This document shows positions 8,164 through 14,670 of a stretch of 39,707 bases of DNA, in pieces. Source of the DNA: Actinomycetota bacterium. Lineage in GTDB: Bacteria > Actinomycetota > Actinomycetes > JACCUZ01. Within the stretch, counting starts at the first letter, position 1. Each line of letters begins with the position of its first letter. The stretch spans positions 1-39,707 of the forward strand of contig JAVEDI010000074.1 in assembly GCA_030841035.1 (NCBI GenBank), read 5' to 3'. The position numbers and the translations under genes are program-made. The notes beneath the pieces were generated by a model. The model saw only the letters and a program-made list of their open reading frames with translations, made no database searches and was not told where the DNA came from.

Positions 8164-9519
8164 ATGCATCAGCAGCACAACGGCACGGCGACCGCTGCGC
8201 CCCTGCCCGAGATCCTGCACTGGGACGCCGATCCGGACGCCCGCGCGACCGTGCGCACCGAGCACGACGTGATCGGCTTCGTCACCCGCACCTGCTTCAA
8301 GACCGGCCCGCCCGGGCGCGTCGGCCTCGAGTCCGAGTGGTTCCTCGAGCCGCGAGCCGGCGGCACGCGCTTCCCCGACCTGCTGAGGCTGGCCGAGGAG
8401 GCCGCGCCGTTGCCGGGCGGCAGCCTCCTGAGCTTCGAACCCGGCGGCCAGCTCGAGCTCAGCACCCGGTGCGGTGACGACTTCCCGCACGCGCAGGACC
8501 TGCTGACCACCGACCTCGCCCGCATCGACAAGCTCCTCGCCGACCGCGGGCTGCGGCGCGTAGGCGTCGGCGTCCACCCGCAGCGCCGGCCCGAGCGGGT
8601 GCTGCGGACACCGCGCTACACCGCGATGGAGCGGTACTTCGACCGGCACGGCGGGCCCGCCGGCCGCCAGATGATGAGCACCACCGCCGCCGTGCAGGTG
8701 TGCCTGCAGGCCGGCGCCGACGAGCGCGACGTACGCCGTCGGTGGTCACTCGTGCACGCGCTCGCCCCCGTCCTCGTCGCGTCCTTCGCCCACTCCCCGT
8801 TGCGCGGGGGCCGGCCCACCGGCTGGGCCAGCACGCGCCAGCAGATCTGGGCGCAGCTCGATCCGACCCGTACCCGTCCGGTGCTCCCGGCAGGGCAGTC
8901 GGGCGAGGAGGTCGACCCCGCCGAGCAGTGGGCCCGCTACGCCCTGGACGCCCGGGTCATGCTGCGGCGCACGACCGGCGACAGCTGGCAGGTCGACCCG
9001 GGCATGACCCTGCGCGGGTGGGTGCGTGGCGAGACCACGGCACCACCACCGACGTACGACGACGTGGCCTACCACCTCTCGACGCTGTTCCCGCCGGTGC
9101 GCCCGCACGCCTGGCTCGAGCTGCGGATGATCGACGCACTGCCCGACCGGCTGTGGCCGGTCGCCGGGGCCGTGACCACCGCTCTCGTCGACGACCCGCG
9201 GGCCGCTGATGCCGCACGCGCCGCTCTCGAGCCCCTCGCGACGGCACCGGACCGACACGTCGGCGCCGGCCGCGAGGCGTTGCGTGACGACACCGTGCAC
9301 GCCGCGGCCGTGACCTGCTTCCGAGCGGCCACCGAGGCACTTCCGCGGGTGGGCGCCGACCGGGTGCTGTGCGACACGGTCGAGGCCTACGCAGAGCGCT
9401 ACGTCGACGCGCGCCGCACCCCCGCCGACGAGCTGCTCGACGACTGGCGCTCGCACGCCGACGACGACGCCGGGCACGACCCCGGACCGGGTCACCGGAC
9501 CCGGGAGGAGGACGCATGA
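8164..9519 (+). CDS. egtA: EgtA, glutamate-cysteine ligase of ergothioneine biosynthesis
   Basis: 451 residues, GCS2-family fold. It joins glutamate and cysteine to gamma-glutamylcysteine, the sulfur donor used by EgtB in the mycobacterial-type pathway. Supporting segments: GLESEWFLEP (the ATP-grasp-like start), SFEPGGQLELST, and VQVCLQAGADERD, all characteristic of actinobacterial EgtA. Start ATG 8164 has GGAGAAGGGG 9 bases upstream. A possible -10 TACGGT lies at 8106-8111, so the cluster probably has its own promoter. egtB starts inside the stop codon (ATGA overlap). The assignment rests on the order egtA-B-C-D as much as on sequence. Confidence 0.92.
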   Translation: MHQQHNGTATAAPLPEILHWDADPDARATVRTEHDVIGFVTRTCFKTGPPGRVGLESEWFLEPRAGGTRFPDLLRLAEEAAPLPGGSLLSFEPGGQLELSTRCGDDFPHAQDLLTTDLARIDKLLADRGLRRVGVGVHPQRRPERVLRTPRYTAMERYFDRHGGPAGRQMMSTTAAVQVCLQAGADERDVRRRWSLVHALAPVLVASFAHSPLRGGRPTGWASTRQQIWAQLDPTRTRPVLPAGQSGEEVDPAEQWARYALDARVMLRRTTGDSWQVDPGMTLRGWVRGETTAPPPTYDDVAYHLSTLFPPVRPHAWLELRMIDALPDRLWPVAGAVTTALVDDPRAADAARAALEPLATAPDRHVGAGREALRDDTVHAAAVTCFRAATEALPRVGADRVLCDTVEAYAERYVDARRTPADELLDDWRSHADDDAGHDPGPGHRTREEDA

Positions 9520-10859
9520 CGCTGCTCGACACCTCGCAGTCCGGTGACGATGCACTCAAGGCGGTGTTCGCCCGCGAGCTCGAACGGGTGAGGGACCGTA
9601 GCCACGGCCTGACCGTCGACGTCCTCGATGTCGACGAGCTGCTCGCGCAGCACTCGCGCCTGATGTCGCCGCTGGTCTGGGACCTCGCACATGTCGGCAA
9701 CTACGAGGAGCTGTGGCTGCTGCGGGCCGCCGCGGGCCTCGAGGCGATGCGGCCCGAGCTCGACGACATCTACGACGCGTTCGAGCATCCACGCTCCGAG
9801 CGCCCGACGCTGCCCTTGCTGCCTCCGTCCCAGGCGATGTCCTACCTCGGTCAGGTGCGAAGCAAGGTCCTCGACGCCCTCGACACGATGCCGCTCGATC
9901 CGGCGAATCCCTTGCTTGACAAGGGGTTCGTCTACGCGATGGTCGTGCAGCACGAGCACCAGCACGACGAGACGATGCTCGCGACACACCAGCTGCGCCG
10001 CGGCGCCACAGTGCTCGGCGACGTACCCCCTCCCGCCGCGCCCGCGCCGCCCTTGCCTCACGAGGTGCTGGTCCCGGGTGGACCCTTCACGATGGGCACC
10101 TCCGACGACGGGTGGGCCTACGACAACGAGCGCCCCGCGCACGAGGTGTTCGTGCCGGCGTTCCACCTCGACTCGGCGCCGGTCACCAACCGCGCGTACC
10201 TGTCGTTCGTGGAGTCCGGTGGCTACGACCAGCCGCGGTGGTGGAGCCACGCCGGCTGGGAGTGGCGCACCGCGTCAGGGAAACGGCGTCCGGCGTTCTG
10301 GCTGCGTGAGGGCGGCGAGCCGTTACGCCGCCGGTTCGGCCGGGTCGAGCCACTGCCGCTGGACCAGCCGGTGCAGCACGTCTGCTACCACGAGGCCGAC
10401 GCCTACGCCCGCTGGGCCGGCAAGCGGCTGCCGACGGAGGCGGAATGGGAGAAGGCGGCGTCGTGGGACCCCGTCACGCGGACCAAGCGCCGCTACCCGT
10501 GGGGCGACGCCGACCCGACGAGCGAGCACGCCAACCTCGGCCAGCGTCATCACCAGCCCGCCGAGGTCGGCGCCTACCCGGCGGGGGTGAGCGCCTACGG
10601 CGTGCACCAGCTGGTCGGCGACGTGTGGGAGTGGACCTCGAGCGGGTTCGAGGGCTACCCGGGCTTCCGCTCGTTCCCCTACAAGGAGTACTCCGAGGTC
10701 TTCTTCGGCGGCGACTACCGCATGCTGCGCGGCGGCTCCTGGGCGAGCGACCACACGGCGGTGCGCACGACGTTCCGCAACTGGGACCACCCGGTCCGGC
10801 GACAGATCTTCGCCGGTTTCCGCTGCGCCCGCGACGCCGCGCCGGGCGAGGGGCGCTGA
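9516..10859 (+). CDS. egtB: EgtB, ergothioneine sulfoxide synthase
   Basis: 447 residues. It is a non-haem iron enzyme that uses O2 to join hercynine to gamma-glutamylcysteine, giving the sulfoxide. The N-terminal DinB-like helical domain supplies three iron-binding histidines: His59 in DLAHVGNYEE, and His146 and His150 in QHEHQHDE, the HxxxH pair followed by the usual E. The C-terminal formylglycine-generating-enzyme/sulfatase-modifying domain runs from about residue 185, with GGPFTMGT, NERPAHEV, RLPTEAEWEKAA, GDVWEWTSS and MLRGGSW. ATG 9516 was chosen over a longer open frame because of GGGAGGAGG just upstream and the overlap with egtA. Confidence 0.95.
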   Translation: MTLLDTSQSGDDALKAVFARELERVRDRSHGLTVDVLDVDELLAQHSRLMSPLVWDLAHVGNYEELWLLRAAAGLEAMRPELDDIYDAFEHPRSERPTLPLLPPSQAMSYLGQVRSKVLDALDTMPLDPANPLLDKGFVYAMVVQHEHQHDETMLATHQLRRGATVLGDVPPPAAPAPPLPHEVLVPGGPFTMGTSDDGWAYDNERPAHEVFVPAFHLDSAPVTNRAYLSFVESGGYDQPRWWSHAGWEWRTASGKRRPAFWLREGGEPLRRRFGRVEPLPLDQPVQHVCYHEADAYARWAGKRLPTEAEWEKAASWDPVTRTKRRYPWGDADPTSEHANLGQRHHQPAEVGAYPAGVSAYGVHQLVGDVWEWTSSGFEGYPGFRSFPYKEYSEVFFGGDYRMLRGGSWASDHTAVRTTFRNWDHPVRRQIFAGFRCARDAAPGEGR

Positions 10860-10862
10860 GCC

Positions 10863-11663
10863 ATGTGCCGTCACCTCGCCTGGCTCGGCGCGCCCCGCAC
10901 CCTGGCCGCGGTCGTGCTCGACCCGCCGCACTCCCTGCTGCGCCAGTCCTACGCACCCCGCGAGCAGCGGCACGGCAGCATCAACGCCGACGGCTTCGGG
11001 GTGGGCTGGTACGCGCCCTCCGTGCGCCGCGAGCCGGCCAGGCTGCGACGCGGCCAGCCGATCTGGACCGACCTCTCGTTCGCGTCGATGGCTCCCCTCA
11101 TCTCCTCGGGATGCGTGCTGGCCGCCGTGCGGTCGGCGACCGCACCGTTCCCGGTCGACGAGGCGGGTGCGGCGCCGTTCACGGCCGGGCCCTGGCTGTT
11201 CAGTCACAACGGCAAGCTCGACGACTTCGCCGTGCACGCGGTCGCGTTGCGGACCCTCCTGCCGCCTGCCGCAGCAGCCGCGGTCGAGACGCCGTCCGAC
11301 GCCGCGCTGCTGTGGGCCCTGACCCGCCACCGGCTCGAGCAGGGGGCGACGCTGGGTGACGCGCTCGCGTCCGTCGTCGCCGAGGTCGCGGCGATCACCT
11401 CGGGCCGGATGAACCTGCTGCTCACCGACGGCACCGCGGTCGCCGCGACGACGTACGGCGACACGCTCGTGACCCGCCGCGAGGCCGACGGCGTGCTCGT
11501 CGCCTCCGAGCCGGTGGACGACGGGCCCGGCTGGGAGCGCGTCCCCGACGCCTCACTCGTCGTCGTCACCGCCGATGCGCACACCGTGGCCCCGCTGCCC
11601 GTGCCACCGCGGCCGACCGTAGCGACGGCGGCGCGGACCCCGCAGACCGGAGGCATCACGTGA
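10863..11663 (+). CDS. egtC: EgtC, class II glutamine amidotransferase-like hydrolase
   Basis: 266 residues. EgtC removes the gamma-glutamyl group from the EgtB product. Met-Cys at the N-terminus (MCRHLAWLG) exposes Cys2 as the Ntn nucleophile. The class II amidotransferase pattern follows: NADGFGVGWYAP, SVLAAVRSAT-type segment, and FSHNGKLDDF. Only 3 bases separate it from egtB. The stop overlaps the egtD GTG. Length and order match mycobacterial EgtC. Confidence 0.94.
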   Translation: MCRHLAWLGAPRTLAAVVLDPPHSLLRQSYAPREQRHGSINADGFGVGWYAPSVRREPARLRRGQPIWTDLSFASMAPLISSGCVLAAVRSATAPFPVDEAGAAPFTAGPWLFSHNGKLDDFAVHAVALRTLLPPAAAAAVETPSDAALLWALTRHRLEQGATLGDALASVVAEVAAITSGRMNLLLTDGTAVAATTYGDTLVTRREADGVLVASEPVDDGPGWERVPDASLVVVTADAHTVAPLPVPPRPTVATAARTPQTGGIT

Positions 11664-12652
11664 GCATCCAGAGCCCCAGCGGCCGCGTGCACATCGAGCG
11701 GCACCACACCGACGCGGTCAGCGGCGAGGCCCTCGCGGCCGACGTGCGGGCGGGCCTGACGGCCGAGCAGAAGACGTTGCCACCCAAGTGGTTCTACGAC
11801 ACCGTCGGCAGCGAGCTGTTCGAGGAGATCACCCGGCTCGAGGAGTACTACCCCACGCGACGCGAGCGCGAGGTGCTCCGCGCACACGGTGGCGACATCG
11901 CCGCCGCGACCCGGGCCCGGACCCTAGTCGAGCTCGGCTCCGGCTCGGCGGAGAAGACCCGGGTACTGCTCGACGCGCTCTCGGTCGAAGGCACCCTGGA
12001 GCGCTACGTACCCGTCGACGTCAGCGACAGCGCGCTGATCTCGGCCGCCGAGGCGGTCGCGGAGGAGTACCCCCGGCTCGAGGTGCACGGGGTCGTCGCC
12101 GACTTCGTCGAGCATCTCGACGTGCTGCCGACCGGCCCCTCGCGGCTTGTCGCCTTCCTGGGCGGCACGATCGGCAACTTCGAACCCGGCCCGCGCGCCG
12201 ACTACCTGCACCGCATCGCCGGGTCGCTGCGCCCGGGCGACGCGTTCCTGCTCGGCACCGACCTGGTCAAGGACCCTCAGCGGCTGGTGCGCGCCTACGA
12301 CGACGCGGCCGGTGTGACGGCGGCGTTCAACCTCAACGTCCTGGCCGTCCTCAACCGCGAGCTGGGCGCCGACTTCGACCTCGAGTCCTTCCGCCACGTG
12401 GCCCGCTGGGACGCCGAGCGCGCCTGGATCGAGATGCACCTCCAGTCGCGCCGCGACCAGACCGTGCACCTCAAGGCGCTCGAGTTCGACGTCCACTTCG
12501 CCGCGGGCGAGACGCTGCGCACGGAGGTCTCGGCCAAGTTCACCCGCGATCGCCTCGCCCAGGAGTACGCCGACGCCGGGCTGCGGCTGGCCGCCTGGTG
12601 GACCGACGCCGCCGGCGACTACGCCGTGTCCCTGGCCGTACCGCCCCTCTGA
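11660..12652 (+). CDS. egtD: EgtD, L-histidine N-alpha-methyltransferase
   Basis: 330 residues. It transfers three methyl groups from S-adenosylmethionine to histidine, making hercynine, the first ergothioneine intermediate. Seen: PKWFYDTVGSELFEEITRLEEYYPTR (43-67), which carries the substrate-loop Tyr pair; the SAM-binding stretch LVELGSGSAEKTRVLLDAL (about 89-107); FLGGTIGNFEP; and AWIEMHLQS. Start GTG 11660 overlaps the egtC stop. The usual fifth gene, egtE (PLP-dependent C-S lyase), does not follow; the next gene is on the other strand. Confidence 0.95.
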   Translation: MSIQSPSGRVHIERHHTDAVSGEALAADVRAGLTAEQKTLPPKWFYDTVGSELFEEITRLEEYYPTRREREVLRAHGGDIAAATRARTLVELGSGSAEKTRVLLDALSVEGTLERYVPVDVSDSALISAAEAVAEEYPRLEVHGVVADFVEHLDVLPTGPSRLVAFLGGTIGNFEPGPRADYLHRIAGSLRPGDAFLLGTDLVKDPQRLVRAYDDAAGVTAAFNLNVLAVLNRELGADFDLESFRHVARWDAERAWIEMHLQSRRDQTVHLKALEFDVHFAAGETLRTEVSAKFTRDRLAQEYADAGLRLAAWWTDAAGDYAVSLAVPPL

Positions 12653-12676: not shown

Positions 12677-14224
12677 TCAGGAAAGGAAGGGCGCGGGTAC
12701 GTCGTCGTCGGCGTCGCCGAGCGAGGCCAGGTTGACGATGTCGCCCGACAGGATGCCGGTGACCGTGCGGAACGGCTCGCCGATGTGCAGGCCGTGGCCG
12801 TCGATGGTGAACTCGCGGATGTCGTGGTCGTGGGCGGAGCCGCGCATCTTCAGCACGGTCATGCCGCGCTTGACGGTGCCGAACACCTCCACATAGCGCA
12901 GCAGCACGATGCTGTCGGTCAGCGTCGAGAGGTGGCTCTGCTTCATGGACCAGCCGCCGAGCAGCGTGTCGGTCGACACGGTGAACAGCCCCACGACCTG
13001 CCTGGCCTTGACGAAGGACGTCAGCCCGATGACGAACTCGCGGAACGACTTGTGGGTGCCGACGCGTTCGAGCGCCGAGAGGCTGTCGACGACGATGCGA
13101 CTCGGGCCGAACTCGTCGACGAGCCGCTTGATCTCCACCAGGTGGTCCTCGAGCGTCGCCACCTCGGGGTAGGTCGAGACCACGCGCAGGGCGCCGTCCT
13201 TCTCGGCCTGTTCTAGGTCGTGTCCCCACCCTCGGGCGTTGCGGTGCAGCTGGTTGCGGCTCTCCTCGAACGCCAGCATCAGCGCCCGCTCGCCCCGCGC
13301 GATGCCGCCGGCGAGGAACTCCGTCGCGATCAGTGTCTTGCCGGTGCCCGTCGCACCCGAGGCCAGGACGATCGAGTCGCGGAAGAAGCCGCCGCCGCAC
13401 AGCGCGTCGAGATCGGCGTTGCCCGAGGTGACGCGGGTGTCGGTGGAGCCCTGGTCGAGGGCCTGCGCCGAGATCGGCAGCACCATGACACCGTGGCCGG
13501 GCAGCACCGTGAACGGGAACTGTCCCCGACGGTGGGCGCCCCCGCGCACCTTGAGGATCTCGACGGTACGTCGCCGGGACTCACCGTCGAGGGTGTTGCG
13601 CAGCAGGACGACGGTGTCGCCGATGTACTGCTCGACGCCGCGCTCGGCCAGCGTGCTCGACCCGGTGTGGTCGGTCTCGACGGTCAGCAGCACCGTCATG
13701 CCGAGGCGGCGCAGCTCGGAGAGCAGCCCGCGCAGCCGCGCCCGTGCGGCGGCGGCGTCGCTGCCGGTGAACGCCAGGGCGGCGCCGAACGAGTCCAGCA
13801 CCACCCGCTCCGCCCCGGTGCGGTCGATGGCCTGCCCGATCTGCGCCAGGAGGGTGTCGAAGTGCACCGGCTCCTGCAGGTCGCGATGGGCGTCGTAGCG
13901 CGGCGAGCCGTCGACGAAGGCCCACTGGCCGGCCTGCTCCCACTCGTCGATCGCGAACCCGAGGGTCGCCAGGTTGAGGCGCAGGTCGGCGGCGGACTCC
14001 TCGAGGGTGACGAACACCCCGGGCTGGCCCGAGGCCGCGCCGCTCGCCAGGAAGTGTGCAGCCATGACGGTCTTGGCGCTACCCGCCGGTCCCGCGAGCA
14101 CCGCGACGCGCCCCAGGGGGAAGCCGCCCATGGTCACGTGGTCCAGGCCGGAGATGCCGGTGGGCAGGCGCGGCAGCGAGGGGACGGCATCCGATGCCGG
14201 GGCCCCCTGGTCGTCGATCATCAT
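12677..14224 (-). CDS. Two-domain KaiC-like ATPase with conserved Ser-Thr phosphosite pair
   Basis: 515 residues, about the length of cyanobacterial KaiC (519), with two RecA domains. CI: Walker A GPAGSAKT (45-52), Glu75-Glu76 in TLEES, and segment VEQYIGDTVVLLRNTLDGESRRRTVEILKVRG. CII: Walker A GATGTGKT (290-297), Glu320-Glu321 in AFEESRNQLHRNA, Walker B RIVVDSLSALERV. Near the C-terminus SHLSTLTDSIVLLRYVE aligns with the KaiC region holding the phosphorylated S431/T432; here Ser433-Thr434 are kept, while the KaiC T426 position is Lys428. Autophosphorylation is therefore possible. No kaiA or kaiB is nearby. ATG 14224 overlaps the stop of the upstream ATPase gene (ATGA), so the two are translationally coupled. 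Likely a signalling ATPase; a clock role is unsupported. Confidence 0.9.
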   Translation of the reverse strand: MMIDDQGAPASDAVPSLPRLPTGISGLDHVTMGGFPLGRVAVLAGPAGSAKTVMAAHFLASGAASGQPGVFVTLEESAADLRLNLATLGFAIDEWEQAGQWAFVDGSPRYDAHRDLQEPVHFDTLLAQIGQAIDRTGAERVVLDSFGAALAFTGSDAAAARARLRGLLSELRRLGMTVLLTVETDHTGSSTLAERGVEQYIGDTVVLLRNTLDGESRRRTVEILKVRGGAHRRGQFPFTVLPGHGVMVLPISAQALDQGSTDTRVTSGNADLDALCGGGFFRDSIVLASGATGTGKTLIATEFLAGGIARGERALMLAFEESRNQLHRNARGWGHDLEQAEKDGALRVVSTYPEVATLEDHLVEIKRLVDEFGPSRIVVDSLSALERVGTHKSFREFVIGLTSFVKARQVVGLFTVSTDTLLGGWSMKQSHLSTLTDSIVLLRYVEVFGTVKRGMTVLKMRGSAHDHDIREFTIDGHGLHIGEPFRTVTGILSGDIVNLASLGDADDDVPAPFLS

Positions 14225-14670
14225 CCGACCTGCAGCTGCACAACCTGCGTCACCGGCAGCACGAACCACACGGCCTTGCCGCCGGAGTGGGTGCGGGTGC
14301 CCCATGCGTCGCTCAGGTCGGCGACCAGCGCCAGCCCCCGCCCGCCCGGGCGGTCCTTGGACCAGTGGCGCGGCTCGAGTGACTGCTCGACGGGCGCCAG
14401 GTCACCGACCGCGACCATGACCTGCTCGTCACCCATCACCACGTCGAGGCGCACCGGCGTACGCGCGTGCAGGACGGCGTTGGTCACCAGCTCGCTGGTG
14501 AGCAGGACCAGCGTGTCCAGCGCGTCGGTCGTGAGCTCCGGCTCGGCAGCACGCACGAAGGCGCGGGCCAGCGAGACCGACGCGGGCACCGGGTCCAGAT
14601 GTGCATGGCGCTCGCTGGTGGGGCCGGTGAACGGCGACGGGTCGGGGTGCACGACGCGCTCATCGCACAC
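14221..14670 (-). CDS. RsbW/SpoIIAB-type ATP-binding protein (anti-sigma or serine kinase-like)
   Basis: 149 residues, a stand-alone HATPase_c domain. The N-box is SELVTNAVLHA, the G1-like segment is MVAVGDLAP (weak, where DxGxG is usual), and the G2-like part is GGRGLALVADLSDAWGTR, followed by KAVWFVLP. The length and layout are those of actinobacterial RsbW-like regulators, which bind or phosphorylate an anti-sigma antagonist. No sigma factor, STAS antagonist or PP2C gene is adjacent; the only partner in the operon is the KaiC homologue. GTG 14670 was chosen because AGGGGGTAGGA lies a few bases upstream. Confidence 0.82.
   Translation of the reverse strand: MCDERVVHPDPSPFTGPTSERHAHLDPVPASVSLARAFVRAAEPELTTDALDTLVLLTSELVTNAVLHARTPVRLDVVMGDEQVMVAVGDLAPVEQSLEPRHWSKDRPGGRGLALVADLSDAWGTRTHSGGKAVWFVLPVTQVVQLQVG

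Follow-up and report, generated by a model that had tools for sequence, protein, structure and literature searches.

KaiC is thought to have acquired KaiB, and then KaiA, en route to the circadian clock (PMC10076222). KaiB and SasA bind KaiC at its B-loop, comprising residues 116-123 in cyanobacteria (PMC12084410, PMC6378743). The closest described systems to the locus analyzed here are KaiBC systems without KaiA, represented by Rhodobacter sphaeroides, Rhodopseudomonas palustris and actinobacterial kaiBC loci, with which it shares a two-domain KaiC, the lack of KaiA, and a small partner gene that usually lies directly ahead of kaiC. The locus is situated in a 39,707-nucleotide stretch of actinobacterial DNA (contig JAVEDI010000074.1), hereafter the window. 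Its small partner is a HATPase, which fills the slot where related KaiCs have KaiB, and this main point was missed by the first-pass annotation of the window. No description of a KaiC-HATPase pairing was found in the literature, of which our coverage was partial, making its novelty provisional; a survey of minimal clocks (PMC5520375) mentions neither actinobacteria nor a HATPase.

A two-domain KaiC overlaps a HATPase gene

The two genes are arranged on the minus strand with the HATPase (149 codons) first and kaiC (515 codons) second, joined by a four-base overlap.

14221-14670, minus strand: stand-alone HATPase of RsbW/SpoIIAB fold (HATPase_c_2), 149 aa, GTG start, N-terminus like that of its relatives (M-C/S-C...)
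14221-14224, minus strand: ATGA overlap of the HATPase stop and the kaiC start, a -4 overlap found in 17 of 18 loci
12677-14224, minus strand: kaiC-like gene, 515 aa, with CI and CII RecA domains and without a KaiA-binding tail

The window KaiC scores 555 bits against NCBIfam NF006799 "circadian clock protein KaiC" (cut-off 408) and matches Pfam KaiC twice, forming two tandem domains that span its full length, which bears out its first-pass identification as a full-length KaiC homologue. It lies under the stricter equivalog threshold of TIGR02655 (457 vs 546). The closest solved structures are KaiC chains, with PDB 8zn5 at 535 bits. This is the sole KaiC-like gene with two full domains in its genome, the two other matches being weak and partial.

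The motifs of the two RecA domains are located as follows.

14069-14092, minus strand: CI Walker A, residues 45-52, GPAGSAKT, with Ala replacing the last Gly
13997-14002, minus strand: CI catalytic Glu pair, E75-E76, EE in 18/18 clade members
13334-13357, minus strand: CII Walker A, residues 290-297, GATGTGKT
13262-13267, minus strand: CII catalytic Glu pair, E320-E321
12923-12943, minus strand: phosphosite region, residues 428-434, KQSHLST, with K428 at the T426 position and S433-T434 at S431-T432

Alignment agrees with the first-pass placement of S433-T434 on cyanobacterial S431-T432 and of K428 on the T426 position, and the Glu-Glu pairs it had named are present in both domains (75-76 and 320-321). 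Its claim of complete Walker A motifs in both domains holds for CII and fails for CI, where G45-PAGSA-K51-T52 carries Ala in place of the Gly preceding Lys, one residue off GxxxxGK[ST]. The same Ala occurs in 14/18 KaiCs of the HATPase clade and in 4/14 KaiB-linked KaiCs. Being usual in the clade and found in KaiB-linked KaiCs, it is by itself no sign of a dead domain; as a mark of KaiB loss it was rejected on account of those four KaiB-linked KaiCs.

The gene pair is a conserved unit

Loci came from whole genomes as well as from named genomes that were scanned (Frankiales, Frankiaceae and Mycobacteriales bins and Motilibacter deserti), giving 18 distinct genomes, most of them metagenome bins, whose KaiCs form one clade. 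KaiC at E < 1e-90 is rare, being found in 8/394 genomes of the class sample and 10/396 of the phylum sample. The HATPase lies immediately upstream of kaiC in all 18 clade genomes, a count drawn in part from the named-genome scan, which used a five-member alignment of HATPase-linked KaiCs and would have found HATPase-less members only if they shared its patterns. The class and phylum whole-genome searches, which used the window KaiC alone, gave the same either-KaiB-or-HATPase picture. The first-pass annotation had pointed to the ATGA overlap and had raised conservation of the pair across actinobacteria; the pair is kept in every genome of the clade, and a reading-frame check places an in-frame KaiC start exactly 4 bases within the HATPase stop in 17/18. 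Reading-frame searches also served to read loci L039, L040, L051, L054 and L058. The exception is Motilibacter deserti, a species with a cultured strain (E257), where an apparent 67-base gap separates the HATPase stop from the KaiC start; at this locus (L019/L060, ~2822-2947), the overlapping GTG start of G068 is out of frame.

Outer neighbors vary: one Frankiales group has UvrD, methyltransferase and ThiF genes, the window and its nearest relative (G002) have ABC_cobalt, the Motilibacter-family (f28) genomes have sigma-70 and DUF456 genes, and the remaining loci have still other neighbors. The pair itself is the conserved unit, since its outer neighbors differ among loci. Both the KaiC identity (535 bits to 8zn5) and the pairing (18/18) are well beyond chance.

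Several neighbors deserve mention in their own right. An ergothioneine-type egtABCD cluster, encoding a GCS2 ligase and EgtB-like (DinB/FGE), EgtC-like (GATase) and EgtD-like (Methyltransf_33) proteins, occupies positions 8164-12652 of the window on the plus strand, convergent with kaiC. In G002, the strand of the pair carries, 76 bases ahead of the HATPase, a gene for a B12-binding-domain protein (L014, 3195-4247, minus strand); in the window, an NmrA-like gene is located at that place. Input to the pair from a cobalamin-based sensor of light or redox state is conceivable.

The HATPase occupies the slot of KaiB

The comparison set consists of 14 other actinobacterial KaiC loci with a KaiB-like gene within ~1 kb (L015, L017, L018, L034-L038 and L040-L045), excluding L007 and L068, beside neither of which a KaiB was seen. 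In these loci, the KaiB-like gene is mostly directly upstream of kaiC, often overlapping it, with PAS and REC proteins near. KaiB (PF07689) exceeds the cut-off in 11/12 other actinobacterial genomes with KaiC and in 0/18 HATPase-type genomes; completeness is known for five of the latter, at 93-99.8%. KaiA (PF07688) was found in neither the window's genome (G000) nor G002, and the absence of kaiA and kaiB noted at first pass thus extends to the whole genome of the window. One genome (G440, L026/L039) presents a third state, an actinobacterial KaiC without the HATPase and without KaiB over the cut-off, so that outside the clade the rule of either KaiB or HATPase does have exceptions.

With non-actinobacterial KaiCs as the outgroup, the tree unites all 18 HATPase-linked KaiCs in a single clade (support 100/100) nested inside the actinobacterial KaiB-linked KaiCs. 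By parsimony, KaiB was lost once and the HATPase gained once. The HATPases of the pairs likewise cluster separately from 16 paralogues drawn from two of the genomes, at a modest support of 77/83. A single partner exchange in the ancestor of a Frankiales/Motilibacter-like actinobacterial clade appears to be the best reading of these trees. One KaiC from a "Melainabacteria" bin (L055) is nested among Frankiales in the actinobacterial clade, and this bin is probably mislabelled.

The CI domain is remodeled at the KaiB-docking loop

13859-13882, minus strand: KaiC B-loop position, residues 115-122, DLQEPVHF, without the GxFD motif of KaiB-linked KaiCs

All 14 KaiB-linked actinobacterial KaiCs carry [GP]x[FYW]D in the B-loop. 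The key Asp is kept in 1/18 KaiCs of the HATPase clade, and the window reads EPVH vs GxFD. The clade has 14 diagnostic substitutions, conserved within it and different in the KaiB-linked set, all of them in CI and none in CII (Fisher p=0.001; the two f28 members were excluded as divergent). Because it sets a single clade against the comparison set, this test describes one evolutionary branch. Among the 14 CI positions are Q128, G130 and D134, just past the B-loop. Mean pairwise identity in CI and CII is 0.66 and 0.49 in the clade vs 0.52 and 0.51 in the KaiB-linked set, and in disjoint pairs CI identity exceeds CII identity in 7/9 of the clade (p=0.016) vs 3/9 of the KaiB-linked set. The pair formed by the window and G002 is exceptional, with identities of 0.74 (CI) and 0.77 (CII).

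Taken with the gene order, these patterns suggest that KaiB was exchanged once for a HATPase of RsbW/SpoIIAB type in the same upstream-overlapping slot, and that this HATPase may dock on the remodeled CI, a reading to which we give an even chance. The B-loop could instead have simply drifted following KaiB loss, with the HATPase not replacing KaiB there. A further alternative is that the two genes are merely co-transcribed, KaiC and HATPase having no interaction and KaiB having been lost as the system decayed. It would account for the degenerate CII of some members, and HATPase_c_2 matches are frequent, at 25-31 per genome; yet the pair has outlasted both altered gene neighborhoods and the divergence of KaiC to about 42-50% identity, CI is more strongly constrained than in the KaiB-linked KaiCs and keeps its EE in every member, and decay would not preserve the -4 overlap in 17/18. 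We consider this alternative very unlikely.

Phosphosites are variable across the clade

The cyanobacterial S431 is kept in 13/18 members of the HATPase clade and T432 in 7/18, with both present in 5/18 and Gly at T432 in six. Variation extends to the KaiB-linked KaiCs, of which 7/14 have both sites. The Glu pair is retained in CII in 15/18 members vs 18/18 in CI, and the two Motilibacter-family (f28) members have lost the CII pair together with both phosphosites while keeping the HATPase. The subclade of the window and G002 retains S-T with EE (window) and T-S-T with EE (G002) in a CII conserved as well as CI, so that CII function is not lost there.

The first-pass annotation had proposed a switch made by S433/T434 autophosphorylation in CII, with the HATPase reading it out as an anti-sigma type regulator. 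Intact S433, T434, CII Walker A and EE in the window and G002, the even conservation of CII and CI in these two, and the presence of STAS and SigB/F/G genes are all consistent with that model, which nevertheless has to accommodate a clade in which few members carry both sites and a Motilibacter-family pair that retains the HATPase after losing the sites and the CII EE. As the general mechanism we regard it as quite unlikely; within the subclade of the window and G002, a Ser-Thr phospho-switch is possible. Judged from the sequences, the conserved tie between KaiC and HATPase lies elsewhere than in the phospho-switch.

A HATPase of RsbW/SpoIIAB fold

14479-14493, minus strand: HATPase N box, E60-LVT-N64, with E60, T63 and N64 invariant
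14332-14343, minus strand: HATPase G2 box, residues 110-113, GRGL, with G110 and G112 invariant

A PDB search with a profile of the 18 HATPases retrieved SpoIIAB (4e-7), the RsbW domain of Rv1364c (5e-6) and RsbW, and the AlphaFold2 model (pLDDT 82) has SpoIIAB and RsbW as its top Foldseek matches. Profile and predicted structure thus agree with the first-pass description of the protein as RsbW-like. The residues invariant among the linked HATPases are E60, T63, N64, D90, G110, G112 and K132. The glycines of the G1 box DxGxG are missing clade-wide, the window having D90 followed by L-A-P, and kinase activity is uncertain on account of a G1 box without its usual glycines. Most linked HATPases, including that of the window (14670), open with M-[SC]-C or similar, placing a conserved Cys directly after the start.

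The window HATPase scores below curated cut-offs (spIIAB, 21 bits vs 135; RsbA_anti_sig, 50 vs 210), and a separate, RsbW-like HATPase gene of >100 bits adjoins a STAS gene on contig C94 of the same genome. For these two reasons, the kaiC-linked HATPase is not the RsbW-RsbV pair of the genome.

Candidate sigma or STAS partners, which the first-pass annotation had suggested seeking by co-occurrence, occur at the level of genomes and not of loci: SigB/F/G-type sigma genes and STAS_2 genes are present in 18/18 clade genomes, and the pair has no conserved neighbor of STAS, PP2C or sigma type. The genome counts cannot discriminate for or against an anti-sigma model, since both kinds of gene occur in all 18. 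Among the 25 commonest neighbor families (shared by at least 2 of 56 neighbors), no STAS, SpoIIE or sigma partner lies near the pair except the f28 sigma-70 gene, although a STAS or SpoIIE gene at one single locus could still fall outside these families. The f28 gene, encoding a sigma-70 factor with regions 1.2-4, lies near the pair in both f28 Motilibacter genomes (L019, 4938-5900; L020, 6200-7240). This gene is located near the kaiC end and is convergent with kaiC, and it does not belong to the operon.

The HATPase may alternatively be an enzyme acting on KaiC, as a protein kinase or nucleotide-exchange regulator in a KaiB-like role, with no sigma or STAS output. Its location in the gene slot of KaiB, which accelerates the ATPase of Rhodobacter KaiC (PMC10076222), the invariance of E60, N64, D90 and G110/G112, and the lack of a STAS or sigma gene as conserved neighbor argue for such a role, while the closest structures solved in the family are of proteins made to engage STAS and sigma partners, and such partners are available in trans in every genome. 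This alternative seems to us unlikely.

A proposed CI-based switch

In the preferred reading, KaiC and the HATPase would be produced together and bind each other, the HATPase docking on the remodeled CI face that formerly served KaiB and SasA. Through its slow ATPase cycle, CI would report the ATP/ADP state or elapsed time, and its state would then govern either the capture and release of the HATPase or the activity of the HATPase as a kinase. That the HATPase binds the CI ring in place of KaiB, with the CI ATPase state setting whether it is held or active, is a proposal we judge evenly balanced. CII autophosphorylation would be an auxiliary input at most, possible in the window's own subclade. 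In the least certain step, the freed HATPase would act on a sigma factor of SigB/F/G type or on a STAS antagonist, with genes at other sites; output through a STAS/sigma partner switch in trans is speculative and rather doubtful. The complete scheme is a KaiB-free KaiC timer or energy sensor whose CI ring would directly capture and release an RsbW-type kinase and so wire a clock-type ATPase to a sigma pathway of the partner-switching kind, KaiB having been exchanged a single time for an unrelated protein in its operon slot. We offer it as tentative and less likely than not.

These features suggest that, in this branch of soil actinobacteria, KaiC has been rewired from a timer to another kind of switch. 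The clade looks like a natural experiment in reverse, with KaiB lost and an unrelated ATPase recruited to its slot. If true, it would show how KaiC behaves without KaiB and would provide a direct link from a clock-type ATPase to the actinobacterial anti-sigma network, in a system testable with two small soluble proteins.

Comparison with known systems

The window system differs from KaiBC systems in having a HATPase as partner, in missing KaiB genome-wide, and in the loss of the B-loop GxFD; the window KaiC also has no coiled-coil tail, unlike that of Rhodobacter. It is no KaiBC member, because neither KaiB nor the KaiB-docking loop was found, although it is plausible that it works like one. 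Cyanobacterial KaiABC with SasA offers a likeness in that SasA, which bears a HATPase domain, reads KaiC at the CI B-loop. SasA, however, is a histidine kinase with a KaiB-like docking domain, whereas the single-domain window HATPase is neither a histidine kinase nor equipped with such a domain, and KaiA and KaiB are missing.

The anti-sigma serine kinases RsbW and SpoIIAB and the mycobacterial UsfX share with the window HATPase the fold, the N-box Glu and Asn, the Asp, and the G2 residues. They differ from it in that the window HATPase is coupled with kaiC and not with a gene for a STAS protein or sigma factor, has a degenerate G1 box, and lies below the family cut-offs. Archaeal KaiC-like signaling hubs resemble the locus in joining KaiC with other signaling domains; the hubs described so far combine KaiC with REC or HalOD1 domains in archaea (PMC5847659) and involve no exchange of KaiB for an RsbW-type partner.
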